Source: a virus
IMG/VR virus record: IMGVR_UViG_3300027754_000127
Coordinates: 1 to 52,889 of that record
Length of the DNA: 52,889 nucleotides
Strand: one strand, 5' to 3'
Numbering within the stretch: position 1 is the first letter of the stretch; each line of letters begins with the position of its first letter. Of this stretch, positions 5,740-47,799 are shown in pieces. Under the pieces are notes generated by a model. That model had not been told where the DNA came from and did not search any database. It saw nothing but the letters and a program-made list of their open reading frames with translations. Position numbers and translations under genes: made by a program.

Positions 5740-6615
5740 ATGACAAACGAAATTACAATTTACGATATTAAAATTCCAACTCAAAGAGAGGAGGTTTGTA
5801 ACCGAGACAATATTAACAGATTGCTTGATAATATTAAGGCACTTAAAAACAATGTCCTAAAGTTTGATACCAAAGAAGACATTAAAGAATCTAAACAATT
5901 CAAAACTAATGCAAATAAGTTCATTAAGGAATTTAAAGAGTTTTGTGATCCTCTAGAAGAAGAGGGTAGGATTATTGCCAAGACTAGAAGCGAAGTTAAG
6001 TTGACACTTGAAAAGATTGTTGAGGAAAAACTTGCTCCCCTTGTCGAAAGGGAGGAAAAGTTAAAAGTCATTAAGAATAATTTATTTATTCCTAGTCTAA
6101 ATATTGATTCTTGCGTTGCTAAAAAAACCAACTTGATTTTACTTAACAGCTATGATTGGTTCGGATTGAAAGATGAGGCTTTGCCTTTGATTAATCAATC
6201 AATAACTTTCCTTGATAATGAGCTTTTGGGTTTTGAAAAAGCCGCAAAAGAGAAGGCTGATGCAGAGGAAAAACAAAGATTAGAAAAAGAAAATCTAATC
6301 AAAGAACAAGCTAAACTTGAGGCAGAAAAAGCGGCGGCTAATGCAATTGCAGAAGCTAATAAAAGAGCCGAGAATGCAGAGGCAGAAGCTAAAAGAAAAG
6401 TTGAGCAGGAAGCTAAGGATAAAGCTAATGCAGAAGCTAAATTGAAAGCGGAAGAGGAAGTTAAAACTAAAAACAAAGACCACCAAGCTAAAATCCATAA
6501 TGAGATATTGGAAGATTTGCTGAAATATTTTGACAAAATAAATGAAGAGCAAGCCAAAGATATTATTAGATTATTTGCTTCTGGCAAGATTAGAAACCTT
6601 AAAATTACCTACTAA
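5740..6615 (+). CDS. DUF1351-like coiled-coil protein
   Basis: 291 residues. The N-terminal ~110 residues are helical and charged (NANKFIKEFKEFCDPLEEEGR). Residues ~155-245 are a long Ala/Glu/Lys coiled coil, and a short globular end follows (DIIRLFASGKIRNLKI). This plan fits DUF1351-type phage proteins that are usually encoded beside RecT/Bet or RecE genes, as here. They are assumed to help recombination, but no activity is established. The coiled coil creates long open frames on the opposite strand, which are not genes. Confidence 0.65.
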   Translation: MTNEITIYDIKIPTQREEVCNRDNINRLLDNIKALKNNVLKFDTKEDIKESKQFKTNANKFIKEFKEFCDPLEEEGRIIAKTRSEVKLTLEKIVEEKLAPLVEREEKLKVIKNNLFIPSLNIDSCVAKKTNLILLNSYDWFGLKDEALPLINQSITFLDNELLGFEKAAKEKADAEEKQRLEKENLIKEQAKLEAEKAAANAIAEANKRAENAEAEAKRKVEQEAKDKANAEAKLKAEEEVKTKNKDHQAKIHNEILEDLLKYFDKINEEQAKDIIRLFASGKIRNLKITY

Positions 6616-23753: not shown

Positions 23754-24299
23754 CTACGATATTAATCCGTGAGCTTGCAATCTAGCTTTCAAAGCAATAA
23801 TTGCAGTTCTAGCTTCTGCATCAATAACAGCACCACCCGAAGGATTTGAAACTGACGCACCTTGGCTTCCAACTACTTTAATATTATTTACTTTTAAAAC
23901 TCCACCTAAATTTATATCTTGACTAAAATTACCCTCTGGCGTGGTAACGGTTATTTTCTGGTCGCCAGTCGCTTCAATTAAAATTGAGCCATCTTGTTTT
24001 AAATAAACTTTATTTCCCTTTGCTCCATAGATAATTTTTTCTCCTTGTTGAATTAAAGGGGCGTTATCTATGTCGTAAGGCATCACATAATTCATTCCAT
24101 ATTCGCAACCAATCTGAAAAACCACACATTGATCTCCAACAGCAGGGCAGGCATTATCTCCTGTTAGATAGATTAAAACCCCCTCTTCTATGTCTTGACA
24201 AGTTGGGTCTTGGAATTGAACTCGTATTCTTCCAAGTTCTCCAACAAATTCTAATTTTATAATTTCTGCTATACGGATATTATTCATCTTTTGGAACAA
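23754..24299 (-). CDS. Mu gp45-like baseplate spike protein
   Basis: 181 residues. The N-terminal OB-like domain (RIRVQFQDPTCQDIEEGVLIYL, GDQCVVFQIGC) is followed by a beta-helical shaft with the repeats KGNKVYLKQDGSILIEA and QKITVTTPEGNFSQDINLGGV, and the tail SVSNPSGGAVID. This is the membrane-piercing spike type of Mu and P2. No apex HxH iron motif is obvious. It overlaps the gp44-like gene by 20 bases. Confidence 0.82.
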   Translation of the reverse strand: MFQKMNNIRIAEIIKLEFVGELGRIRVQFQDPTCQDIEEGVLIYLTGDNACPAVGDQCVVFQIGCEYGMNYVMPYDIDNAPLIQQGEKIIYGAKGNKVYLKQDGSILIEATGDQKITVTTPEGNFSQDINLGGVLKVNNIKVVGSQGASVSNPSGGAVIDAEARTAIIALKARLQAHGLIS

Positions 24300-25509
24300 A
24301 TGCGGATTGATTTTTACCTCTTTTTCCTCTTTTGATTTTTATTTCAAAAACAGAATCGGTGTAAGATAAAGGATCGACTAAAGTCATTTCGCTTTTAGTT
24401 CCGCTCATATCTTTTTTATATTTTATGGACTTAATTAATAAATTTTTATCAACATCATTTTGAGAATCATAAACAGAAACTAACTGATTAATTCTCCACA
24501 AAGGATTCTTTGAAAAGTCTAAACCTTGAATTTCATTTAAGTTCTGTCTCCAGCCATAAACAGAACAATTATATTCAAATGATCTCGCTCTGCGAATATT
24601 ACATTCCCATTCTGCTCTTTTGGCGCAGTTTGCAGGGCTTAAATTTGAAACATTATCTAAAAATTTTCTAGTTTTTCTTATCTCACCATCATAAAAAATA
24701 CCTGAATACTGAACGGCGTTATCTTTTAAAGTATCGGGCAATTTTTCTTCCGCAGCAATAGTCTTGGAAACTGTTGGTGAAATATTTGTTCCACTAGAAA
24801 GAATTTTATACTCATAATATCTGCGAGAATCATCACGAACAACATTAGGGTCTATAATGTTATTTCTTAAATTAGGGTTGTTAGCAAAAGTATCATTCAC
24901 TAAAATTGTGAGTGCTTTTTCTTGTCCTATTTTTCTAATAATAACATTTCCACTTCCATCAGTTCCTATAACTAACCTTCTTTTATCAGCTAGTCTTTGG
25001 ATTAAATTATAAGCACTTTCATCTTTGCCAAAACCAATACTTTCGTTTGTTTGGAATTTCTCAATATCACCATATTCATTAATCACAGAGACTTGGGATT
25101 GTTGTAATTCTCTCTGAAGTCCAATAATTTTATTTTTAGAGACAATCTCATAACCTGTCTGAGTCAAAAGTTTTTCTAAAATCTCTAAAAATTCAATTGG
25201 GGTTTTGAAAGTTTTGTTTGAAACACGACTATCTGCAAAATCACAAAGTTTATCCCTGCCAGAAATTTGTAAATTAACGCTATCTTTAGAACAGGTTTTT
25301 CTTTGTTTCTCGATAAAACCAGTAAGCATTGTTTCGCCATCAATCTTAACTTTGATTGCTTTTCCTTGAGTAATCGACTCATTACTTTCGACAGGAATAT
25401 TGATTCCAATATCAAAAGAAAATCCAAAAGTATCTAGGTCAGTGTCAATATTAACACTTTTAAAAGTTTGGAAAACCTTGCCGTCAATGTCTACTGTAAG
25501 GATATTCAT
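24280..25509 (-). CDS. Mu gp44-like baseplate hub (late control D type)
   Basis: 409 residues. The gpP/gpD-type hub signature includes GKAIKVKIDGETMLTGFIEK, VNLQISGRDKLCDFADS, ESAYNLIQRLADKRRLVI and later RWRINQLVSVYDSQN-like WRINQLVSVYDSQNDVDKNLLIKS (shown in part). The hub centres the baseplate and holds the spike encoded just downstream. It overlaps the gpN-like gene by four bases. Confidence 0.85.
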   Translation of the reverse strand: MNILTVDIDGKVFQTFKSVNIDTDLDTFGFSFDIGINIPVESNESITQGKAIKVKIDGETMLTGFIEKQRKTCSKDSVNLQISGRDKLCDFADSRVSNKTFKTPIEFLEILEKLLTQTGYEIVSKNKIIGLQRELQQSQVSVINEYGDIEKFQTNESIGFGKDESAYNLIQRLADKRRLVIGTDGSGNVIIRKIGQEKALTILVNDTFANNPNLRNNIIDPNVVRDDSRRYYEYKILSSGTNISPTVSKTIAAEEKLPDTLKDNAVQYSGIFYDGEIRKTRKFLDNVSNLSPANCAKRAEWECNIRRARSFEYNCSVYGWRQNLNEIQGLDFSKNPLWRINQLVSVYDSQNDVDKNLLIKSIKYKKDMSGTKSEMTLVDPLSYTDSVFEIKIKRGKRGKNQSAFVPKDE

Positions 25510-26747
25510 TGAGATAATGCGGTTATATTACCAGAAATAAAACAAGGGTCTTCTACTGCGTTAAGGGCATTTAACTCATCCGAACGAGTGCTGTCGCCGT
25601 AAAGATTATAAGCCAAAACAGCAGTTGGAATTAAGTTTGTTCTTAAAGAGACATAATAAGGCAAAGTAGCTCTTGCGTTCTGTAAAAGAAGTCTGTTTTG
25701 CGTTCTCATTTCTTGAAGGTCATAATAAACATCTTCATTAACAGAGTCGGGGTCTAAAGTCTCGAATGCTTCATTTAGCCTAGCAAGCATTGAGTCAATA
25801 TCGCTTTGGGAGGTAAAAGTAATATTGGTCGTAGCAAGGTAAGCTATTGTAAGGCACGCAACATCAGTATAATTAGCCAAAGCAATTTTATTGGTATTTA
25901 ACTGGGTAATTAAAGCGGAGCTTCCAGTGATTTTAGTTCTATCACTCGATCCAAATATCTGTAAAACAATATTGGTCATTATATTAAAATCATCCGTAAT
26001 AGTAGCAATACTATTATAAATAGTCGTAAATCTTCTAGCTAAGTTCGTTGGTGTTTGCATCAAGGTAATAATCGAGGAGCTTAAATCCTTAATGTCAGCA
26101 CTAAAAGCCGCTACTTCATCAGCCACTCCGTTCGTAGTAGAAACAACATTATTAATCGTTTGGGTATTTTCTTGAAGAGAATCTCTTCCTTGGTTCCAAA
26201 GTTCTATATTTTTATTGTAATAATCCAATGCTTGACCAAGAATTGATTCATTATTCCCAAAAGTTTTATCGTAAAGATTAGCCAAGAATCCTTGATTGCC
26301 TTCGGTAGAAGTTGGGAAGATATTTAAAGTGCTTTCTAAGAATGTAATCCTAAAACCAACAACTCCGTTTTCAGTGATAAAGTCTTCACTCATTGAAGCT
26401 GGCTGTGGAACTACTTTTTTCTTGCCTAATGTAGGGTGAGTTAAAACTCCAATGCCTTGTGTTTCAAGGGCTTTCATTAAAGCATTTCTTGATCTCTTAT
26501 AAGCAGAGGCGGTTGTTTCTTGAATCTCAATATCTAAAACATATTTGCCAGAATTTTTACCCAAGTCTTCAACATAGCGATTATCAGAATTAGGATATTC
26601 GTGGACTACTGTTTTTCTGCCAAGTTCAGGCATTTCTGCATTTCTTGCATAGAATCTAACGGTCTTTCCGCCGATTGCATAACTTGCTCTATAAAATGAA
26701 CTTAATACTGTCATCTTTGCCCCGCTATTACTGTTGATGGTCGCCAC
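25506..26747 (-). CDS. DNA circularisation protein N-like (Mu gpN, tail/baseplate)
   Basis: 413 residues. The N-terminal ~130 residues fit the 'DNA circularisation protein N-terminus' family: SSFYRASYAIGGKTVRFYAR, PELGRKTVVHEYPNSD and YVEDLGKNSGKYVLDIEI, then HPTLGKKKVVPQPASMSEDF. The rest is a long helical domain (residues ~180-400). In Mu this protein is part of the tail hub; the family name is historical. It overlaps the tape measure 3' end by 37 bases. Confidence 0.85.
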   Translation of the reverse strand: MATINSNSGAKMTVLSSFYRASYAIGGKTVRFYARNAEMPELGRKTVVHEYPNSDNRYVEDLGKNSGKYVLDIEIQETTASAYKRSRNALMKALETQGIGVLTHPTLGKKKVVPQPASMSEDFITENGVVGFRITFLESTLNIFPTSTEGNQGFLANLYDKTFGNNESILGQALDYYNKNIELWNQGRDSLQENTQTINNVVSTTNGVADEVAAFSADIKDLSSSIITLMQTPTNLARRFTTIYNSIATITDDFNIMTNIVLQIFGSSDRTKITGSSALITQLNTNKIALANYTDVACLTIAYLATTNITFTSQSDIDSMLARLNEAFETLDPDSVNEDVYYDLQEMRTQNRLLLQNARATLPYYVSLRTNLIPTAVLAYNLYGDSTRSDELNALNAVEDPCFISGNITALSQ

Positions 26748-28462
26748 ATAGACATATTAGGTTGGCTTGTCTGAACACTAAAGAAGTCTGGCATATTTTC
26801 TGTTGTGATTTTTACTATTACTTCTTGTGGTTTTTGAGGAATATTATTTTGTTGGGCATTATTCTGCATTGATGGTGCGCTAAAATAGTAGTTCTTCCAG
26901 TCTCTCATAGCCTGTCTACCTAATTCTTTTTCTCCCATTGCTCCAGCTACTGCAACTTCGCCAAGCATACTAGCAGTTTTAAATGGGGCTTTTATTAGTT
27001 CACCAGTTCCGTCAACCATAACATCTTTTAATCCACCAGCCATTCCTTTTACAATCTTAAATAATTTGCTATCGCCGAAAGCATTATCCATTATTGTAAA
27101 TGATTCAGTAATAGTTTTGATTGAGGTTACTGATTGATTTATAGCATCAGTCAATCCCCTAATCGCACCTATTTGTAAGTCGTATGTGCTTATTCCTAAT
27201 GTAGAAGCGAGTTGTTGACCTGCCGTAGATAATCTGTTTTCTTCACCTTGCATCTTAAATGATTTTTCAATCATTTCTTTACCAAACTTTTCATTAATAA
27301 CTTTTATTAATTCTCTTAGCATCAAATCAGAGCTTAGTTTGCCAGTTGCCATTGATTTTATAAATTCAGTGGAGGCATTTTGCATTGTTATATCTTTCCG
27401 CCCTCCTTTTTGAGCTAGTCTAAAAAATGCTTCGTGCAACATCGGTTTAATACCAGGTAATTGCTGCGTTTGTAAGTTGATCTCTTGAGCCTGTAAAGTT
27501 TGTTTAGTCAGCATTTGTTGGAATGCGACCATAGTATCTTGAATAGCAGGTCCTTTCAAACCTAATAAACTTCCATAACCACCAATATTTTCTACCAATC
27601 CTCTAGCTAGTGAAGCATCAGTTTTTCCACCAGTTCCCAACATTTGAACATAAGAAGGAGCAATATCGTTAAAACTTAAACCATATTTATTTGATACTCC
27701 TTTTATGTAATCTATTTCAGATTGGGCCGTGGCTTTTTCCAGTCCTTTAACATTTGGAATTAAGGCAGATAACGAAGCTCGCAAGGAATCCATTTGAACT
27801 GTTGTATCGTGAACATATTTGACTGATCTTCCAACTGTGTAAGCTGCTCCTGCAAAACCTAAACCAGAGGCAACACTACTCATAGAACCAAAGCCATTAC
27901 CTAGTAATCCACCAGCAACTCCATATTTAACACCAAATTCTTTTGGGGTTTTTTCAATACTTTCAAATTTACCAAGTTGATTATTAAATGCAACTTTAGT
28001 AAATGCTCCAGATGGTGCTAACATAGCACTAGAAACATTCATTCTAGTGGCTCTTATCCTATTTCCAAAAATTCTTTCTTCCTGAATCTTGACTCGAGAT
28101 AAAGTATTTACTGCCTGTTTATTTAGGAGTTGTTTTTGAGATAAGGTTTTAAGATTTGTTGCTCCTGCAATAGCATTATCTTTTTCAGCTAACGAAGCGG
28201 CTTTTGTAGTCTTAGCAATGTTGCTTTTGAGGAATAAAGTCTTTGATAGCCCGATTCTTTCTTCGTGCATCCATTGCTTATGCTGCCTCCATTCTTCTTG
28301 TTGGATTTTAGAATAATTTATTCGTGCTTTACGAGTTTTTTCTTCTTGTTCGGTAAATTTCTTTGTAGACTTGCCAACAGAATTGAGACTGTCATTGAAT
28401 TTCTTGATATTATCAGAATAACCATCAAGGACTTCTAATATGTAGGATATTTTGTCGCTCAT
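26711..28462 (-). CDS. Tail tape measure protein
   Basis: 583 residues. Charged coiled-coil N-terminus (KKFTEQEEKTRKARINYSKI), then an apolar glycine-rich region around 185-215 (GGLLGNGFGSMSSVASGLGF), then the tape-measure domain DSLRASLSALIPNVKG...YVQMLGTGGKTDASLARGL. It sets tail length; its size suggests a short-to-medium contractile tail. Its ATG overlaps the stop of the frameshifted chaperone product (ATGA at 28459-28462), with an AAAAGGAGAGG ribosome-binding site. Confidence 0.88.
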   Translation of the reverse strand: MSDKISYILEVLDGYSDNIKKFNDSLNSVGKSTKKFTEQEEKTRKARINYSKIQQEEWRQHKQWMHEERIGLSKTLFLKSNIAKTTKAASLAEKDNAIAGATNLKTLSQKQLLNKQAVNTLSRVKIQEERIFGNRIRATRMNVSSAMLAPSGAFTKVAFNNQLGKFESIEKTPKEFGVKYGVAGGLLGNGFGSMSSVASGLGFAGAAYTVGRSVKYVHDTTVQMDSLRASLSALIPNVKGLEKATAQSEIDYIKGVSNKYGLSFNDIAPSYVQMLGTGGKTDASLARGLVENIGGYGSLLGLKGPAIQDTMVAFQQMLTKQTLQAQEINLQTQQLPGIKPMLHEAFFRLAQKGGRKDITMQNASTEFIKSMATGKLSSDLMLRELIKVINEKFGKEMIEKSFKMQGEENRLSTAGQQLASTLGISTYDLQIGAIRGLTDAINQSVTSIKTITESFTIMDNAFGDSKLFKIVKGMAGGLKDVMVDGTGELIKAPFKTASMLGEVAVAGAMGEKELGRQAMRDWKNYYFSAPSMQNNAQQNNIPQKPQEVIVKITTENMPDFFSVQTSQPNMSMWRPSTVIAGQR

Positions 28463-28958
28463 CTGCCTCTCCTTTTAGATTCGTTTTCAGCTTTTTCTTG
28501 TGCGGCTTTTGCTTTTTGATGTTCAGTTTGATTGTCTTTTATAGCTATATCAAACCATTCAAAAAGTTCGGGAAAAGGCATATCTTTAATATCATTGTAA
28601 GAGAACGGACTATGTTTTAAAAAGCTATAAATAGATTCTTTAAACTTCCGCCTTTCTACTCTATTGGTGAGAAAGGCTGTGTGTCTAAAAAATTTGCGTG
28701 ATACTCCTTATGTAGAATTTTAGCTGTTCTATATTCCATTGATTCCACTTTAATTTTTCCTTCTTGGATAGGAGAAATATATCCTTTTTGACAAAGGAAT
28801 TTTAAAATAGTATAGGAATTTGTTTCATCAATAGAATCTATTTCACAAAACTTAAGAGCAAACATTTTAACTTTGTTTGTTTTCTGTAAAGTTCCATTTT
28901 TATCAAAGTATTCACTTTCAGATAAAAGCTCGTATTCTTTTTCTTTTAAAAGTTCCAT
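28459..28958 (-). CDS. Tail assembly chaperone, -1 frameshift fusion (gpGT-like)
   Basis: The 100-residue frame ending at 28656 continues in the -1 frame to a TGA at 28459-28461, giving a fused product of 166 residues. The extension reads TAFLTNRVERRKFKESIYSF, then LKHSPFSYNDIKDMPFPELF, and a charged tail ending KRRGR. It has no usable start codon of its own. Position (between tube and tape measure), slippery site and downstream stem are exactly those of gpG/gpGT-type chaperones. The extension would bind the tube protein while the N-terminal part binds the tape measure. Confidence 0.85.
28650..28692 (-). promoter_or_regulatory. Programmed -1 ribosomal frameshift signal
   Basis: The slippery heptamer T TTT TTA (minus strand, 28692-28686) is in the zero frame (AAT TTT TTA). 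After an 8-nt spacer (GACACACA) comes an 8-bp perfect stem GCCTTTCT (28677-28670) / AGAAAGGC (28657-28650) with a 12-nt loop. The zero-frame stop TAG (28658-28656) lies at the loop-stem edge. All three parts of a canonical signal are present at normal spacing. Confidence 0.88.
28656..28958 (-). CDS. Tail assembly chaperone, zero-frame product (gpG/Mu gp41-like)
   Basis: 100 residues, acidic and helical: ESEYFDKNGTLQKTNKVKMF, then CEIDSIDETNSYTILKFLCQ and MEYRTAKILHKEYHANF. The gene lies directly after the tail tube gene (one base apart). The short form is expected to be made in large excess over the frameshifted form and to coat the tape measure during tail assembly. The assignment rests mainly on position and the recoding signal. 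Confidence 0.82.
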   Translation of the reverse strand: MELLKEKEYELLSESEYFDKNGTLQKTNKVKMFALKFCEIDSIDETNSYTILKFLCQKGYISPIQEGKIKVESMEYRTAKILHKEYHANFLDTQPFSPIE

Positions 28959-28959
28959 A

Positions 28960-29361
28960 TTAATTAGTTAAAATTGCTGGTTGAGATTCAAATGAAATAG
29001 AGATAACCCCATCAGGAGAGTCATTAAATTCAATTTTATTCATTACAGAAGCGTTGTTAAATAGAATAGTTTGTCCAACTCCATCTGGCTCAATGACAAT
29101 TTGATTGTTTCCATTATTAGCGTGCAAATTACTAATAAGAACTCTTGGATCAGAATCAGTATCAGAATCGGAAACTAAAATATCAAAACTACACATACCT
29201 TTTTTTGTTTCTAGATTAGCATAAGGAATAGTTTGAACAGTATTACCAGAAACTTGGGTTCTAGTTGTTGTTTCAGGTAATCCTAAATCATATTTTAGAC
29301 TTCCTTGAAGAAAGAAGATATTAGATCCATTAATGGATATTTTTTTATTTGTATAAGCCAT
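28960..29361 (-). CDS. Tail tube protein (Mu gpM-like)
   Basis: 133 residues, beta-rich: NKKISINGSNIFFLQGSLKY, then VSGNTVQTIPYANLETKKGM, and the end DGVISISFESQPAIL. Size, composition and place between sheath and chaperone match the Mu-type tail tube, which stacks as rings around the tape measure. Confidence 0.82.
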   Translation of the reverse strand: MAYTNKKISINGSNIFFLQGSLKYDLGLPETTTRTQVSGNTVQTIPYANLETKKGMCSFDILVSDSDTDSDPRVLISNLHANNGNNQIVIEPDGVGQTILFNNASVMNKIEFNDSPDGVISISFESQPAILTN

Positions 29362-29362
29362 A

Positions 29363-30898
29363 TTATAATTGTGGTGTTAAATCAAAAGTTAAAGAATCTA
29401 ATTGACCCATCAAGTTAAACACCATAGAGCCACTAACTGCACCAGTAGCAGTGTTCACAGTCACTACTAAATTTTGTTTAAATTCATTCAATAAAGTGTC
29501 CGAATATTGAAGAACATTGTAAGGAAATTTAGTAAGGTCAATATAAAGACCAACTATGTAAGCTCTGATTGTTTTTTCATTTGCATAACGAGCTAATGTA
29601 TTATCAGGAGTATCACCAGCAGTTAATCCAGCTTGTGCATAGTAATTTTTAAGATTGGTCATAATATAGGCTCTGGCAGTTGTTGCACAGTCGCTTTTAT
29701 TTAGAGTTTGGTAAGTATAACCGTCAGCAGTTGGAGTAGCTTGTTTATAAGCAGACATCCAAAGTTTATTAGTCACTGCAACAGTTCCACTTTCATCCAT
29801 ACTTAAAGTTGATATACCTAAATCACCCAAACCTTCAATTTCATCAAGGGTAAATCCTTTACCAGCAGCAATGGTAGCAAAGTTATTGAGCTTCATATTT
29901 GAGTAAGGAATACCAGCAGTAAAATATCCACCTCTGTTATTTTCACTCATCATAAATGAGCTAATAGAAGCGTTATTTTTAAGTCTTAAAGTTCTAAGAG
30001 CAGCAATATAAGCAGGAATTGTGTAATCTAATTCTGGCATTGAACCACCTTTATAATCAGCGTCATTTACAAGTTTAACACCAATATAAGTGATGACCTT
30101 AGAAGCTAAAGTTGCTGGAGCTGCAGCTGTTTGAAGATTAGCATAAGTATCAGTCTTAGCAACAATACCAACACCATCTAAAATTTGGTTTCTAGTGTTA
30201 AACTTAGCTTCTAAATGAGTTTTAATAGTGGATAAGAAAGCTACAGGAGAAATAATATCGTATCTTGAAGCATCAATTTTAGTTAAGATGCCAGTCAAGG
30301 TTGGATCAGTTGCACCAGAAGTAAAAACAGTAGTAGTTTGGGTAACTCCGCTTGGTAAAGATTCAACTTGAATAGTAATTCTATTTCCTTCTGTTCCTTT
30401 GTTTTTAGCGGTGAAGGTTACTGTTCCAGTAGAGTTTGCTGCTGTAACTGGCGAATTGCTATCAGCGGTAATCGCTGTAACTAGATCATTACCAATAGTT
30501 GTTGCAGTAGATGAAGTAGTTGTCGCAATAGCGTATCTGTTTTTAGTGTAAGAACCAACTGTCACATATAAAGTTCCTGCCGCAGGACTAGAAGCTGCAA
30601 AAGCAACCGAACCAGTAGCAGCAACACCAGAACCATTGTCAGAAACGATAATTGCATCTAGTCTAGTTTGTGAATTTATTGCTTTAAAAATGTCAATCAT
30701 CAAATGACCAATAGAACCTGCACCACAAAGTGCTTTACCAGTCCCTAGTTCGTTCGAGATATTTGTGACTAATGCTCCAGAAGTGAAAGACCCTGCACTT
30801 GTTCCTTGTGCAAGAATAAGTGGAATACGATCAGAAGGAGCTATGTTGGTAAGTTTAGAAACTAAATTAGCTTCCGTGATTGGGAAAGTGCCTGCCAT
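29363..30898 (-). CDS. Contractile tail sheath protein (Mu gpL-like)
   Basis: 511 residues. The N-terminus SDRIPLILAQGTSAGSFTSG matches the sheath N-arm region. A threonine/serine-rich inserted beta domain (~100-195) carries GTLYVTVGSYTKNRYAIATT. The C-terminal core holds YDIISPVAFLSTIKTHLEAK, LRTLRLKNNASISSFMM and NEKTIRAYIVGLYIDLTKFP. It makes the outer contractile cylinder and defines this phage as a myovirus. Confidence 0.88.
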   Translation of the reverse strand: MAGTFPITEANLVSKLTNIAPSDRIPLILAQGTSAGSFTSGALVTNISNELGTGKALCGAGSIGHLMIDIFKAINSQTRLDAIIVSDNGSGVAATGSVAFAASSPAAGTLYVTVGSYTKNRYAIATTTSSTATTIGNDLVTAITADSNSPVTAANSTGTVTFTAKNKGTEGNRITIQVESLPSGVTQTTTVFTSGATDPTLTGILTKIDASRYDIISPVAFLSTIKTHLEAKFNTRNQILDGVGIVAKTDTYANLQTAAAPATLASKVITYIGVKLVNDADYKGGSMPELDYTIPAYIAALRTLRLKNNASISSFMMSENNRGGYFTAGIPYSNMKLNNFATIAAGKGFTLDEIEGLGDLGISTLSMDESGTVAVTNKLWMSAYKQATPTADGYTYQTLNKSDCATTARAYIMTNLKNYYAQAGLTAGDTPDNTLARYANEKTIRAYIVGLYIDLTKFPYNVLQYSDTLLNEFKQNLVVTVNTATGAVSGSMVFNLMGQLDSLTFDLTPQL

Positions 30899-31248: not shown

Positions 31249-32718
31249 GTGTTAAACCAAAAAACCCTAGATAAGATTATCCAAGATAGCCAGAATGAGT
31301 CTCTTCGTGGAAGTTTTAGAGATTATTTTAAAAAGTTCGCTTATCCTTTTATCCATCCTGGAAATAAATTAGTTGATACTTGGAGTATTGATTGCTTGTG
31401 TGAATATGGTCAAGCCTTAGCGGATGGTGATATAAAGAGATTAATCATAAACATTCCTCCTGGACTTTTAAAGTCCACAATTTTCTCTTCTGCGCTTCCT
31501 TCTTATATTCTAGGACGAACACCTTATGAGAAAATCTTTGCAATTTCAAATAAAGAAAATCTAGTTAATCGTAATATCGGTTGGACTAAAAGAATTACTG
31601 AAACAAGCGGTTTTAAAACTATGTTTCCAGAATTTAAACCAGACGACAGAAAGAATACTGAAACTCACTTTAGAACTACTAAAGGTGGAGAAATGCAGGG
31701 TTTTGCTACGGAAGGAAACATTACTGGTGAGCGTGCAAATTATCTATTCTTTGATGACTATATGTCTTCTACAATGATGCAGTCAGACACCACCAGAGAT
31801 AGATTGTTAAGTAAATATGATGATACTTTTGAACGAAGAGCGGATGTTATTAGAAACTGTATTGCTATTATTGAACAAAGGCTCGGTGTAAGCGATTTGA
31901 CAGGATTCTTACTTAGAACTAGAAAAGGTGAATATGAGCATTTATGCCTTCCTGTAGAATTTGAGGAGAAGAAGTTTTTTTATATTGGCAATTTCAAAAA
32001 AGAAGTTGATAAAGGGGATTTACTTGCTCCCGAGTTATTGACAAGGGAAAAAGTTGATCTACTCAAAAATAGAATTGTTGATACTGAAACTGGCATTGCA
32101 AATGGTAAGCAGATATATTTTACACAGTATATGCAAAAACCAGTTGCAGAAGGTGGAAATATGGTTGATATGAAATGGTTCCAAAGATTTGATCTTTCAC
32201 AAGTTCCTTTTATGGAGTTTGATAGTGTTTATGTAAGTGCCGATACTGCCCAGAAAGTAAAAGAAATAAATGACCCTTCTGGCTTCCTCAAATTTGGTGT
32301 CAAGGGTTCTTCAATTTATTTAATTGATAGATATAACAAAAGAGCGATATACCAAGATACAAAGGCAAATTTACTTATGTTTGCTGGCAAATTTCCTTCT
32401 GCTCATAAAATTTTAATTGAAGATGCAAATACAGGTTCTTCATTGATCCAAGAACTTCAAAAAGAATGCAGTTATGGAATCATTCCAATTTCTCACGGAG
32501 GAATTAAAAAAGAAATCCGTTTTTATAATTCTACTGGTGCAATGGCAAATGGAAATATCTACCTTCCTAAAGAAGCAACTTGGTTATTTGATTTTGAAGA
32601 GTCGTTAATGCAGTTTCCTAATGCTTCTCACGATGAAGATGCGGATTGTCTGGCTCAATACCTTCTGTGGTTTAAGAATAATTCAGTTGATTGGGAAAAG
32701 ATGTTTATGGTCTTCTAA
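31249..32718 (+). CDS. terL: Terminase large subunit
   Basis: 489 residues, GTG start. The ATPase domain has Walker A-like NIPPGLLKST (residues 68-77), Walker B NYLFFDDYMS (~164-173) and the coupling region KYDDTFERRA. The C-terminal RNase H-like nuclease has VYVSADTAQK (~330), ILIEDANTGSSLIQEL and a late HDEDADCLAQYLLW, which supply the acidic metal ligands. It packages DNA into the HK97-type head. Unusually, it stands alone on the plus strand between two leftward operons and is about 12 kb from terS. Confidence 0.93.
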   Translation: MLNQKTLDKIIQDSQNESLRGSFRDYFKKFAYPFIHPGNKLVDTWSIDCLCEYGQALADGDIKRLIINIPPGLLKSTIFSSALPSYILGRTPYEKIFAISNKENLVNRNIGWTKRITETSGFKTMFPEFKPDDRKNTETHFRTTKGGEMQGFATEGNITGERANYLFFDDYMSSTMMQSDTTRDRLLSKYDDTFERRADVIRNCIAIIEQRLGVSDLTGFLLRTRKGEYEHLCLPVEFEEKKFFYIGNFKKEVDKGDLLAPELLTREKVDLLKNRIVDTETGIANGKQIYFTQYMQKPVAEGGNMVDMKWFQRFDLSQVPFMEFDSVYVSADTAQKVKEINDPSGFLKFGVKGSSIYLIDRYNKRAIYQDTKANLLMFAGKFPSAHKILIEDANTGSSLIQELQKECSYGIIPISHGGIKKEIRFYNSTGAMANGNIYLPKEATWLFDFEESLMQFPNASHDEDADCLAQYLLWFKNNSVDWEKMFMVF

Positions 32719-40127: not shown

Positions 40128-40358
40128 ATGGCAAGAACAGGAAAATCAGAAGAGTTTATTTTTGTAAAAAAATTTGATAGATTTTTCCCAATTCTTCATA
40201 AACAAGGTAAAATAAAAGAACCCAATAGAGATGCTTTTATGGAATATATTGGTCTTAATAAAAATAGCTGGAAAAACTTTAAAAAAACTGGGATTAAAAA
40301 GATTTATTATGTGGTTCTTGAATTATTAGAGAAAGCATATCCTAAAAAGCCCTTATAG
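40128..40358 (+). CDS. Small basic hypothetical protein (76 aa)
   Basis: A lysine-rich 76-residue protein (MARTGKSEEFIFVKKFDRFF, then YIGLNKNSWKNFKKTGIKKI). The second half could be a small helix-turn-helix, but I cannot place it. It is the first gene of a short rightward island, and its last ten bases overlap the tRNA-Thr gene. Confidence 0.55.
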   Translation: MARTGKSEEFIFVKKFDRFFPILHKQGKIKEPNRDAFMEYIGLNKNSWKNFKKTGIKKIYYVVLELLEKAYPKKPL

Positions 40359-40419
40359 TTAAGTGATATAACGATTGCCTTGTAAGCATTAGTTCCTAGT
40401 TTGATTCTGGGTGAGGGCA
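40349..40419 (+). tRNA. tRNA-Thr (anticodon TGT)
   Basis: Acceptor GCCCTTA (40349-40355) pairs with TGAGGGC (40412-40418). D-arm GTTA/TAAC, anticodon loop CTTGTAA (anticodon TGT) with one T-T mismatch in its stem, and T-arm CCTAG-TTTGATT-CTGGG. The D-loop AGTGATA lacks the usual GG, no CCA is encoded, and the 5' end overlaps an ORF, so it may be partly degenerate. Confidence 0.7.
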
Positions 40420-40427
40420 ACAATTTA

Positions 40428-40503
40428 GTCAACTTAGCTGATGTGGTCATAGCGGCAGTTTGAAGAACTGTTGAACTTAGTTCGATTCTAAGAGTTGATA
40501 CCA
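40428..40503 (+). tRNA. tRNA-Phe (anticodon GAA)
   Basis: A complete cloverleaf: acceptor GTCAACT/AGTTGAT, D-arm GCTG/TAGC with GTGG in the loop, anticodon arm GCAGT-TTGAAGA-ACTGT, T-arm CTTAG-TTCGATT-CTAAG, discriminator A and encoded CCA (40501-40503). Confidence 0.9.
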
Positions 40504-40504
40504 T

Positions 40505-40579
40505 TGCGGAGTAAATCATTGGCAGATTATTTGCCTCATAAGCAAAAAGTAGGTGGTTCAATTCCACCCTCCGCAACCA
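40505..40579 (+). tRNA. tRNA with anticodon CAT (Met, or Ile after modification)
   Basis: A complete cloverleaf one base after tRNA-Phe: acceptor TGCGGAG/CTCCGCA, D-arm AATC/GATT, anticodon arm TTTGC-CTCATAA-GCAAA, T-arm GGTGG-TTCAATT-CCACC, discriminator A and encoded CCA (40577-40579). The first T-A acceptor pair is not that of an initiator tRNA. Elongator Met or lysidine-modified Ile cannot be told apart by eye. Confidence 0.88.
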
Positions 40580-41095: not shown

Positions 41096-41295
41096 AAAAC
41101 TTAGTCAAATTTGTTTGTAGTAATGGTCACGAACTTAGCAGGTCAAAAGATAAATTTCTTATGACATTTGATGTAAAAGAAATTACTCACCCAAAATTAA
41201 AAAGTCTTAATCTCAAGAATGGGGATTATCTTAAAAAATGTCCTGATTGTAATGCCTCGACAATAATAACTAAGACAATTTGTGAAGAAAATTAA
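41092..41295 (+). CDS. Zinc-ribbon protein (67 aa)
   Basis: Two half-sites for zinc: VCSNGHELSRSKDK near the N-terminus and KKCPDCNAST near the C-terminus (C...H...CxxC). Probably a small nucleic-acid or protein-binding ribbon. It ends in a four-base tail-to-tail overlap with the portal gene. Confidence 0.6.
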   Translation: MKNLVKFVCSNGHELSRSKDKFLMTFDVKEITHPKLKSLNLKNGDYLKKCPDCNASTIITKTICEEN

Positions 41296-42989
41296 CCTTT
41301 TGCGTTTTGAATTTGTCTCCATTTAGAATTTGCCCAGCTTCTACCAGAGTTTCCGCCCCAAAGCATCCAAGCAATGTAATGATTTGATGGTTCGCCGTTA
41401 GGTTTTTTGTTTTTTCCTTCATTTACTCCGTGTCTAGCAAAGTAAGATACCATTCTTCCGATAGTTTTAGGGGTAAGATTTTCTCTTGATTTTAACTGAT
41501 TAGCTCTTGCAACTCCGATAGAAGTGCCACCTCTGCCGTATTTTTCTCTTAATTCTAATCCACGAGCAGCATTTCTTGCCATTCTTTCACTTGGAACTAA
41601 ACTAAGTGATTTCTCTTCTTCCATATCTTCTTCCTCGACATCGTCCTCTTCTCCAATACCTTGACTCATACCATTAGCAGCAACACCAAAGTTTTCACCC
41701 TCATCACCTGCAACAGCAACTTGGTTTCCATCAATATAGACTGCATTTCCACCAACATTAGTCTTAGGGCGATCCATATACTTCCTAATTTCATTAATTG
41801 TAAATACACCGCCCTTTTTAAGGGTGGAAATTGATTCAAACATACGAACTTGTAGAGCCATAATGGAGGACTTATCATAACCAATCTTGACTATTTCTTC
41901 TCGTGGGTAGAAATTTTGGTAGATAAAATGATAGTAAAAGTCGCAATACTTGTCTAAAAGAGGTAAAATAGCCTTATCATAAAAATAAAGGTTAGCTTCT
42001 TTAGTGGACGCAGCAGCCGCAAACTCACCTTCAACGGATGGAAGAGAAACATTGAAATTATTATAAATAGCAACCCTCATTCTTCGCATTAACTTCTCAA
42101 AGTCCATATCTTTAAGGTTCATATCCAAAGGAACGGCAGTAAATGGTATTCCCATCAATAAAACATTTCCAGTATTATTTACGCCACAGAAATTATTTTT
42201 AATATAATGTCTACTTTTTTCTAATTGATCTTGGGTTGGCATTGTTGTTCCTTCTTTGGGAGAAAACATCATCTTGGAAGACATCCCATTTTTTAGCAAA
42301 TTGGTATTATGAACAGAAGCTTGTAAATACTGGTTCATTTCCAACTCTACACTTTGTAGAGGTGAGTCTCCGTAAAGACAATTGTTTATAGGATTTGTGC
42401 TTGGCTCTTTGAAGTGTACAAGAACTCCGAATTTATCATCAACGAAAGCTTCAATCAATTGATTATTGAAGTTACGAATTAATCTTTTTGTGAAATATCT
42501 TTGCGTTCCATTTGATGTATAGTAGTAATGGTCCACATAGCCATTTGATCCTGCAACAGCGGTGACGAAATCGGGACGAAGATTAAAAACTTCGTTTGGT
42601 TGGTAGATTATTTTAGTTCCATCAGCGTTAAGAACTCCTGAAAGATAAATATAATTATTTCCAGTAGCGAGGTAATGAATAAAAGCTTCTTTGCGGTAGT
42701 CTATTCCTGTTTGTTGGAAGTTTGGTCTGGAAAACTTCTTAACAAAAGCATTATCTTGTTCGGGTTCTAAACCTTCCTCGCTCTCTTCGTAAGGTAAAAG
42801 CCTAATAGCTGAAGCCTCAGAAGCAATTTTTCCAATAGCATCACCAACAGGAGCTATCTGTGAGTAGTATCTTAAACCAACAGAAGGATTAGCAGAAAAA
42901 GAAAATGAATCGTAGTAGTCTCCAATCATCAGTGCATCATAAGCACCTTTTTTCTCATAGCCAAATTTACTTAGAACTTTTTGGAACAT
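41292..42989 (-). CDS. Portal protein with extra C-terminal domain
   Basis: 565 residues. Residues ~1-425 are HK97-type portal: LRYYSQIAPVGDAIGKIASE, EAFIHYLATGNNYIYLSG, VLVHFKEPSTNPINNCLYGD and RRMRVAIYNNFNVSLPSVEG. After an acidic linker (EEDDVEEEDMEEEK) comes a ~110-residue domain, SERMARNAARGLELREKYGR...PKTIGRMVSYFARHG...NHYIAWMLWGGNSGRSWA, which I know from other phage head proteins, usually free-standing or fused to proteases. The portal forms the DNA entry ring. Confidence 0.9.
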   Translation of the reverse strand: MFQKVLSKFGYEKKGAYDALMIGDYYDSFSFSANPSVGLRYYSQIAPVGDAIGKIASEASAIRLLPYEESEEGLEPEQDNAFVKKFSRPNFQQTGIDYRKEAFIHYLATGNNYIYLSGVLNADGTKIIYQPNEVFNLRPDFVTAVAGSNGYVDHYYYTSNGTQRYFTKRLIRNFNNQLIEAFVDDKFGVLVHFKEPSTNPINNCLYGDSPLQSVELEMNQYLQASVHNTNLLKNGMSSKMMFSPKEGTTMPTQDQLEKSRHYIKNNFCGVNNTGNVLLMGIPFTAVPLDMNLKDMDFEKLMRRMRVAIYNNFNVSLPSVEGEFAAAASTKEANLYFYDKAILPLLDKYCDFYYHFIYQNFYPREEIVKIGYDKSSIMALQVRMFESISTLKKGGVFTINEIRKYMDRPKTNVGGNAVYIDGNQVAVAGDEGENFGVAANGMSQGIGEEDDVEEEDMEEEKSLSLVPSERMARNAARGLELREKYGRGGTSIGVARANQLKSRENLTPKTIGRMVSYFARHGVNEGKNKKPNGEPSNHYIAWMLWGGNSGRSWANSKWRQIQNAKG

Positions 42990-44419: not shown

Positions 44420-45031
44420 TTACCTAACAACTTCGCAATCACTTGACAATAAAGCCTCGCAAGAATCAATCACCATTCGCAACTGCTCTTTGTTTAGCTT
44501 CTTAACTAATGACTTGATTGCCAGCCAAGCTGTATCTGCGTTAACCTCTATAATAATGTTATTGGTATTCTCCAAGCTTGATCCTTTGAACTTAACAACA
44601 TTACTAATCATTGTAGCAACTCCTCTTGAGTCACGCATTTCCCTAACCACTCTCCCACCTTCATTTCCACCCCTCTCTACTACTTCGCTGTTGAAATCCA
44701 AATAGTCTTTTATTCTTTGTGAAATATTTGCATCATCAAGTCCTTTTGCGTTCAAATGCTCCCTAAGATTGCGTTCTTCTTTCTCAATTAAAGCCACTAC
44801 ATTAGACTTTTTAAGATTCTCGCTTGCACTCTCTGCTGCACTTGTCAAACTATATCCCGCACTAATTGCCGCCTGTGTTGCACTAACTGCGGTAGGTAAT
44901 AATTGAGCAAATCTTTTCTGTTTTATAGTAACCCTTTTTTCGGTTCCTCTTATTTTTCTTATTGACTCCCTATTACTTGCACGCTTTGCCGCTTTTCGCT
45001 CTGCTTCAGTCTTGTATTTTTTTGGTGGCAT
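44420..45031 (-). CDS. terS: Terminase small subunit
   Basis: 203 residues. A basic N-terminus (YKTEAERKAAKRASNRESIR) is followed by the DNA-binding part TIKQKRFAQLLPTAVSATQA, AISAGYSLTSAAESASENLK, SNVVALIEKEERNLRE, which fits the terminase_2-type helix-turn-helix (KQ-x-x-F...A-x-x-AGYS...A). The C-terminal half would form the oligomer and bind TerL. It is encoded about 12 kb from terL and on the opposite strand. Confidence 0.75.
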   Translation of the reverse strand: MPPKKYKTEAERKAAKRASNRESIRKIRGTEKRVTIKQKRFAQLLPTAVSATQAAISAGYSLTSAAESASENLKKSNVVALIEKEERNLREHLNAKGLDDANISQRIKDYLDFNSEVVERGGNEGGRVVREMRDSRGVATMISNVVKFKGSSLENTNNIIIEVNADTAWLAIKSLVKKLNKEQLRMVIDSCEALLSSDCEVVR

Positions 45032-45440: not shown

Positions 45441-45728
45441 ATGAAAATTGCAGAACCAATAACCTTCAAAAGAATTGATAATGATTCAAATGGTAATCCT
45501 CGTTATGTATTCCATTTTTTAGATCTCGCTTCAACATATGAAGAGGCTTTAAAAATTGCTAAAAAAATAGGAGGCAAGAGATTTAATAACAAACAATACG
45601 GCGGCGGCATTGTTATCCAATCTTACAACTTGGAACAGGCCTCTAAATCAATAAGAGAATTAGCAACTATTAATAACTCAAACAACTTTAAAACTTTAAA
45701 ATTATGGAAAACCTACAACAAAAAATAG
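45441..45728 (+). CDS. Conserved phage hypothetical protein (95 aa)
   Basis: 95 residues: FKRIDNDSNGNPRYVFHFLD, then YEEALKIAKKIGGKRFNNKQ and IVIQSYNLEQASKSI. The NGNPRYVxHF start with a later GG(K)R is a pattern I know from phage early regions. It is the first gene of the right operon, after two promoters, with the leader CTTTTAACAACAACAAAC (45412-45429). Confidence 0.7.
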   Translation: MKIAEPITFKRIDNDSNGNPRYVFHFLDLASTYEEALKIAKKIGGKRFNNKQYGGGIVIQSYNLEQASKSIRELATINNSNNFKTLKLWKTYNKK

Positions 45729-46132
45729 AAAATTTAAACAATCAATCAAATTACAATGAAGCGGCGGAATTGGCGGCCAATACTATGAAAATCAGAATTA
45801 AAAGAGAATGGCTGAAATATGATTATCATTTTGCAGGCGACAAATCGCAAAGGCATATTTTTAAAATCAAATTGTCAAGAAATAATAAATCTTTCTCTTT
45901 TAAGTTTGGGCAATCAATAAAAGACTACGCAAAAGAGCCTACCATTTATCAAATTTTATCCTGTCTTCAGAAGTGCGGGGTTGGAACTTTTGAAAACTTT
46001 TGCGGCGATTTTGGATATGATGAAGACTCAAGAAAAGCGGAGAAGATTTATAAATCAGTTTGTAGGGAGTTTTTAAACATGCAAAAACTTTTTAATGAGA
46101 AAGAGTTGGAAGTTTTGGCATTAATTCAATAA
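45704..46132 (+). CDS. Conserved phage hypothetical protein (142 aa)
   Basis: 142 residues. The core IYQILSCLQKCGVGTFENFC, then GDFGYDEDSRKAEKIYKSVC is a widespread phage early-protein motif (FCxDFGYDxDSRKAxxxY), of unknown function. It overlaps the previous gene by 25 bases. Confidence 0.72.
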   Translation: MENLQQKIENLNNQSNYNEAAELAANTMKIRIKREWLKYDYHFAGDKSQRHIFKIKLSRNNKSFSFKFGQSIKDYAKEPTIYQILSCLQKCGVGTFENFCGDFGYDEDSRKAEKIYKSVCREFLNMQKLFNEKELEVLALIQ

Positions 46133-46770: not shown

Positions 46771-47799
46771 ATGAAAATAACAATTTTAACAAAAAATCTA
46801 AAAACTGCGCTTGAAAATTTAAGCGTAGTAATTGAAAAGCGGGTAAATCCACCAATTTTAAAAATGGTGAGATTTAAAACTTGGGAAAAAGATACAATTG
46901 AGCTAATGGCAAGCAATAAAGATCAAACCTTGAAAACTAGCCTGACTTGCAATATTTTAGAGGTGGGCGAGGGTTGTATTGATGCCGTTGGCTTGCTAGC
47001 GATATGCAAAAAAACAAAAGAAAGAATTTTAGAAATAGAAATTTTGGAAGAAGTTGCAACAATCAAAGCTGGTGAAGTTTTTTTGAAATTACAGGCTGGC
47101 TATTTTAGCGATTTTCCAATTTTAAGCGGTGATTTGCCAGAATTGGGAGAGGTGGCGGGGCTGGTTGGTGCTTTGGATTTTGTTAAAGAAGCAATTGCAA
47201 AAAACCCTGCAAGATATTATTTGAACGGAGCGAATTTAAAGAGCGTGGGCGATAATTTGGAGATTGTAGCGACTGATGGGCATATTTTGCTAAAAACTAT
47301 CCTAAAAAGTGATTTAAAACTTAATTGCATTATTCCACGGGAAACGGTTAAGACGATTTTAAAAGTTTTTGAAGGGAATTTAAAAATTGGTTGCGATAAA
47401 TCCAAAATCAAAATATCTAGCGGAGGTTATGAATTAATTTCCAAATTAATTGACGGCAACTTTCCTGAATATGAAAAAATTATCCCAAAAGGCGAAAAAG
47501 TTTTTCAATATGAAATTGATGGTAAAAAATTAAGTGAAGCAATCAAGCAAATAGAGCCAGAGGAAAAATTCAAAACGATTATATTTAAATTTGGGGAAAA
47601 ATTAGAGTTAGAAAGTAAATCAGGGAAAGCGTCTATTGATTGCGGCGGGGAAGAATTTTTGACAGCTTTTGAAGCAGGGCAAATTTTGAGAGTTTGTAAA
47701 ACCTTCAACAATTTCAAAATGAGCTTTATAAGCAGGGAATCTACGGCCTTGATTGAAAACGATTTCGGGCTTGGCGTGATTATGCCTTGTAGAATTTAA
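46771..47799 (+). CDS. dnaN: DNA polymerase III beta-clamp-like protein (DnaN)
   Basis: 342 residues, close to the ~370 of cellular clamps. Features of the three-domain clamp are RYYLNGANLKSVGDNLEIVA-TDGHILLK in the middle domain, IIPRETVKTILK, ELISKLIDGNFPEYEKIIP and the C-terminal ALIENDFGLGVIMPCRI (clamps end in xxMPMRL-like words). It would encircle DNA and tether a polymerase. No phage polymerase is visible, so it probably recruits host Pol III or repair factors. The 18-base leader CTTTTAACAACAACAAAC (46741-46758) is identical to that of the first gene in the operon. Confidence 0.85.
   Translation: MKITILTKNLKTALENLSVVIEKRVNPPILKMVRFKTWEKDTIELMASNKDQTLKTSLTCNILEVGEGCIDAVGLLAICKKTKERILEIEILEEVATIKAGEVFLKLQAGYFSDFPILSGDLPELGEVAGLVGALDFVKEAIAKNPARYYLNGANLKSVGDNLEIVATDGHILLKTILKSDLKLNCIIPRETVKTILKVFEGNLKIGCDKSKIKISSGGYELISKLIDGNFPEYEKIIPKGEKVFQYEIDGKKLSEAIKQIEPEEKFKTIIFKFGEKLELESKSGKASIDCGGEEFLTAFEAGQILRVCKTFNNFKMSFISRESTALIENDFGLGVIMPCRI

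Follow-up and report, generated by a model that had tools for sequence, protein, structure and literature searches.

A probable -1 ribosomal frameshift yielding two tail-assembly chaperone forms in a Mu/P2-like phage

Introduction

Frameshifted chaperones are known in the tailed phages, and in lambda the slippery site is GGGAAAG. The lambda pair gpG/gpGT is built on a low-level -1 extension of the tail-assembly chaperone just before the tape-measure gene; according to the model of this system, many copies of the short form bind the tape measure, the extended form brings in the tube protein, and the ratio between the two follows from the rate of the shift (PMC5009743). The contractile-tailed phage P2 carries gpE and gpE+E' in its tail operon FETUD (PF06528 for E'), in the slot between tube and tape measure, and a -1 shift is annotated there at a T6 run (T_TTT_TTG). 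The E' part overlaps the start of the tape-measure gene and lacks a ribosome binding site (PMC3931495). Mu and the Mu-like tails (SfV orf13, SuMu, FluMu) follow the order sheath, tube, chaperone, tape measure, DNA circularisation and gpP, which in Mu are the sheath L, the tube M, gp41, gp42, N and P; SfV presents T_TTT_TTC and an open -1 extension, and Mu uses a -2 shift (PMC5009743, PMC2628397). Outside the phages, the gag-pol junction of HIV-1 combines the heptamer U UUU UUA with a stem-loop (PMC4373837).

The stretch of DNA analysed here, called the window, is a virus contig of 52,889 bases with 32% GC, in which a minus-strand gene in the tail region very probably gives rise to two chaperone forms by ribosomal -1 slippage, judging from its sequence and that of its relatives. 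The principle is the same as in lambda gpG/gpGT, but the lambda tail is non-contractile and no sequence similarity to it was seen. The likeness to P2 covers the contractile tail, the slot, the extension lacking its own start and ending over the tape-measure start, and the extension profiles, which align; the differences are a TTTTTTA site with a strong simple hairpin, an extension of 75 aa and zero-frame proteins that have no detectable similarity. The gene order is identical to that of the Mu-like tails, although similarity to them was found only in the sheath and baseplate proteins, at ~22-38% identity, and the -2 shift of Mu differs from the -1 shift predicted here. Regarding HIV-1, the same heptamer and a stem-loop occur in unrelated genes, which represents convergent use. 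The features of the locus are collected in Table 1.

Table 1. Probable frameshift gene, its elements and the associated genes in the window
Feature	Position	Strand	Size and basis
Putative zero-frame tail-assembly chaperone ORF (gpE/gpG/gp41 position)	28656..28958	-	100 aa, 11.8 kDa; ORF translation, position, conservation
Slippery heptamer T_TTT_TTA	28686..28692	-	zero-frame phase AAT.TTT.TTA
Spacer GACACACA	28678..28685	-	8 nt, heptamer to hairpin
Predicted stimulatory hairpin	28650..28677	-	perfect 8-bp stem GCCTTTCT/AGAAAGGC, 12-nt loop
-1 frame extension	28459..28686	-	75 codons + TGA; motif FSYNDIKDMPFPELFEW
Tape measure protein (TMP_3)	26711..28462	-	583 aa; PF20155 E 1e-11; phrog_973
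Tail tube protein (candidate)	28960..29361	-	133 aa; by position; gene order as in Mu, SfV
Tail sheath protein	29363..30898	-	511 aa; phrog_165 tail sheath E 2.4e-46
Mu gpN-like DNA-circularisation / baseplate hub protein	25506..26747	-	PF07157 E 5.6e-16; phrog_184
Mu gpP-like baseplate hub protein	24280..25509	-	PF21683 E 3e-17; PF21929
Phage tRNA-Phe	40428-40503	+	would read P-site UUU during slippage

Neighbouring Genes and Tail Type

On the minus strand, the genes follow the order sheath, tube slot, frameshift gene, TMP_3, Mu-N-like and gpP-like genes and, further on, Baseplate_J, so that the frameshift gene is found between the tail tube slot and the tape measure, the place of the chaperone. 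The tube candidate itself has no profile match in Pfam or PHROGs. Because of the sheath, tube, Mu-N-like and Mu gpP-like neighbours, the tail is contractile and Mu/P2-like, and the nearest counterpart is therefore the slot of P2 gpE/gpE+E' or Mu gp41, not lambda gpG/gpGT. The first-pass annotation had read the gene as a frameshifted chaperone of the gpG/gpGT type; the -1 frameshift in the chaperone slot is strongly supported by the site, the hairpin and the selection on the -1 frame, whereas lambda as the model gives way to the contractile neighbours. A view of the arrangement as unusual finds no support, as a frameshift is the expected state for this slot.

Several other genes of the window were noted in passing. 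A large-terminase-like gene (31249-32718, plus strand; Terminase_6C, E 1e-6) lies on the opposite strand between the sheath and the upstream structural genes, distant from the small terminase (44420-45031, minus strand). The portal protein (41292-42989, minus strand) is 47% identical to Roseobacter phage CRP-811 over residues 462-560, a match that spans features annotated as portal and as major capsid protein, and its portal domain is only ~25% identical to other phages. There is also a phage-encoded DNA polymerase III beta subunit (sliding clamp) at 46771-47799 on the plus strand (PF02767, E 7e-16; PF00712, E 5e-10).

Anatomy of the Probable Frameshift Gene

The zero frame reads through the heptamer in the X_XXY_YYZ phase, as needed for a simultaneous -1 slip of two tRNAs, and the first base of the heptamer lies 37 nt before the end of the zero-frame stop codon. 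This stop, a TAG at 28658-28656, extends into the 3' arm of the hairpin. The -1 frame has no stop between 28707 and the TGA at 28461-28459, and this TGA shares bases with the tape-measure ATG at 28462 (ATGA). Upstream of the slip site the frame contains no ATG, GTG or TTG, and the sole standard start within it, ATG 28581, would leave a product of 40 aa. The fusion predicted for this gene has 166 aa and 19.87 kDa, of which 75 residues are encoded in the -1 frame and ~66 stand past the zero-frame stop, with a predicted junction ANFL-RHTAFLTNR (junction-spanning sequence YHANFLRHTAFL). Ordinary annotation of the lineage finds the short version only.

The zero-frame TTTTTTA, the 8-nt spacer, the perfect 8-bp stem, the 12-nt loop and the ATGA overlap described in the first-pass annotation were all recovered, at 28692-28650 and 28462, as was the fusion reading frame devoid of a start codon. 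The 66 residues that it gave for the extension hold for the part beyond the zero-frame stop but not for the whole -1-encoded part, and the mass of its ~19-kDa fusion is corrected to the value given above.

Chance Tests on Site and Fold

The inverted repeat with an 8-bp stem and a 12-nt loop is the only one of its kind in the window, and shuffled sequences yielded none. The folding energy of the hairpin region is -19.5 kcal/mol, while shuffled sequences average -11.8 (z -3.0), and the 40 nt starting 4 nt past the heptamer give a folding z of -3.3. In addition, every ORF of the window with 80 aa or more was scanned for an in-phase heptamer near its end together with a -1 extension of 30 aa or more, and the chaperone-slot gene alone has this combination with an extension that has no start of its own. 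The scan had a second match, 45441-45728 on the plus strand, where an in-phase TTTAAAA stands 34 nt before the end of the stop codon and the -1 frame enters the ORF 45704-46132 (plus strand), which has its own ATG at 45704; this pair is probably an ordinary overlap, though of possible frameshift shape.

Conservation in Relatives

Relatives of the whole fusion were found in six contigs by scans confirmed with tblastn, and a scan with the sheath reached 54 loci, many of them more distant. For the detailed comparison, 13 relatives were taken whose sheaths are 32-84% identical, with the near-duplicate contigs L035 and L036 in agreement. In every one of the 13, a canonical heptamer in phase stands 19-55 nt ahead of the stop of the gene between tube and tape measure, and the -1 frame continues without interruption to the tape-measure start. 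A survey also covered 39 prophage-like loci of genomes in which the sheath is related and the tape measure could be located; 24 of them combine a canonical heptamer in phase with a -1 extension that stays open up to the tape measure, again in the chaperone slot. Chance is excluded by this conserved arrangement together with the gene being the sole one of its kind among the window's ORFs of at least 80 aa. That the frame change could be what is left of a split gene, an error of sequencing or an accident is next to impossible: nothing speaks for it except the change of frame itself, whereas 13 further contigs and many prophages of related architectures share this relation of the two frames, and both parts of the gene are under purifying selection.

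This selection can be seen in the codon changes (NG86), with dN/dS of 0.08-0.28 for the extension, calculated over the 64-70 codons past the zero-frame stop and with unsaturated dS only, and of 0.06-0.45, where calculable, for the zero-frame part upstream of the slip. Judged by these values, the -1 extension is under purifying selection. A comparison of both frames in relatives had been proposed beforehand as a check on the frameshift, and in it the -1 frame proves to be conserved as a protein, with dN/dS of ~0.1-0.3. The core of the extension, FTYxDIxNMPxPELFEW, is kept as far as L037, whose sheath is only 42% identical. The same conservation bears on the reading of the extension as a separate small protein, started by reinitiation at the in-frame ATG 28581 with no fusion made. 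A Met is present at this place in most relatives, but Trp and Phe replace it in L034 and L037, some of the best conserved residues (YSFLK..FTYNDI) stand upstream of that ATG, the ATG has no ribosome-binding site in front of it, and the slippery site and hairpin would be left unexplained, all of which makes reinitiation highly improbable.

As for the site itself, most relatives have TTTTTTA, L034 and L037 included, with TTTTTTG in L022 and L029, and the close group keeps one of these two heptamers, the spacer and the hairpin; among distant relatives, L031 and L032 have runs of T7-8 and L038 and L039 have AAATTTT. Slippage of the RNA polymerase on the T run, inserting a U, would produce the same fusion with no slip of the ribosome. 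Transcriptional slippage is a documented route to a new frame in bacteria, and both the homopolymeric T6 run of the window and the longer runs of L031 and L032 would suit it. T6 is, however, short for such slippage, the AAATTTT site of L038 and L039 is not homopolymeric, the conserved spacer and hairpin fit the stalling of ribosomes, and in P2 a T6 site of this kind is annotated as a translational -1 shift. Polymerase slippage is thus a very improbable source of the fusion, and ribosomal -1 slippage is the reading followed below.

Regarding the hairpin, the stem cells of seven distinct relatives are paired in 98%, a figure that drops to 52-68% if the partner is shifted by 1-3 columns. The changes among these seven sequences are one compensatory replacement of G-C by U-A and one of U-A by U-G, leaving six of the eight pairs invariant. 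Covariation of the stem is not significant in the seven sequences, as measures at least as high came up in 135 of 500 shuffles; there is little of it, the stem being double-coding and almost without variation. In L034 this position is occupied by a stem with another sequence, ACGAACTTA/TAAGTTCGT (z -4.9 on 50 nt), and the stems of L031, L032, L037, L038 and L039 are weak or non-significant at most of the lengths tested.

Identity of the Two Protein Parts

The extension of the window family aligns with a P2-E'-type extension profile, built from P2 E', SfV, Bordetella phage PBb001 and contigs, at an hhalign probability of 79% (E 1.6e-5, 41 columns). Its top Pfam lead is Phage_P2_GpE (PF06528), matched weakly by one of nine extension sequences (E 0.025, short of the family cut-off), with no match for the extension of the window itself, and a short PHROG family named 'tail protein' weakly matches four members. 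The zero-frame part, compared with P2 gpE and the Mu-like zero-frame chaperones, gives an hhalign probability of 0.1%. Its matches to Glyco_hydro_28 (E 0.004) and Penicillinase_R in the Pfam and PHROGs searches were dropped as chance-level. The AlphaFold2 model of the zero-frame protein (pLDDT 86) has two long strands with helices; Foldseek found no match for it in the PDB and, in a viral library, only an uncharacterised protein of Acinetobacter phage ME3 (E 0.005, TM 0.53), which is unconvincing. The gene is therefore named a tail-assembly chaperone by its position. The fusion has no tblastn match in 50,697 phage records, and the lineage appears, on this sequence comparison, to be far from isolated phages.

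Translation Signals, tRNAs and Host

Shine-Dalgarno sequences are absent at 19 of the 20 gene starts checked, and the tape-measure gene alone is preceded by one, AAAGGAG, which lies inside the final part of the -1 extension and has similar purine runs as counterparts in close relatives. The same lack is seen in phages of hosts, such as Bacteroidota, that do not depend on Shine-Dalgarno sequences, and the frameshift of E. coli dnaX uses an internal stimulator resembling one. Since the structural genes are almost all devoid of such sequences, it is proposed, as an unlikely though conceivable refinement, that the frameshift could depend on the hairpin alone with no dnaX-type stimulator, perhaps being tuned by the phage tRNA-Phe. 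Two further elements were considered and set aside. An AAGGAG stands 11 nt before the slip site, and GGAGG or GGAG is found upstream of it in some relatives, but as a conserved stimulator it was rejected, being absent in L022, L024, L029 and L037. A pseudoknot between the loop AATAGA and a downstream TCTATT, noted by eye, has no counterpart in L021 and L022 and was treated as chance. The tRNA-Phe gene belongs to a cluster of three (Thr-TGT, Phe-GAA and Met-CAT; 40349-40579, plus strand); the structural genes lie on the other strand.

A genome scan with the fusion profile gave no match, and the closest match of the sheath profile is a contig of a Rickettsiales MAG, at 42%. This contig (L077) carries at 5868-6221 a chaperone with TTTTTTA and an extension that hardly differs from the one in the viral contig L037 (5546-5899), and it is possibly a prophage or a co-binned phage. 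Because of this near identity, the binning of the MAG may be unreliable.

Proposed Mechanism and Significance

We infer that slippage occurs, at some rate, and that the products act as chaperones. Most ribosomes would end at TAG 28658, releasing the short chaperone of 100 aa. A minority would stall at the hairpin 8 nt downstream with tRNA-Phe and tRNA-Leu on UUU-UUA, and both tRNAs would move one base back onto UUU-UUU, after which 75 further codons would be read to give the 166-aa fusion, of the E+E'/GT type. If the proteins work as in lambda, the short form would coat the tape measure and the extension would recruit tail-tube subunits, while the slippage rate would set the ratio of short form to fusion.

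The finding changes no concept. What is new is a divergent contractile-tailed lineage that would be using a frameshifted chaperone, and the extension profile FTYxDIxNMPxPELFEW could help to annotate the hidden frame that gene callers and family libraries miss.
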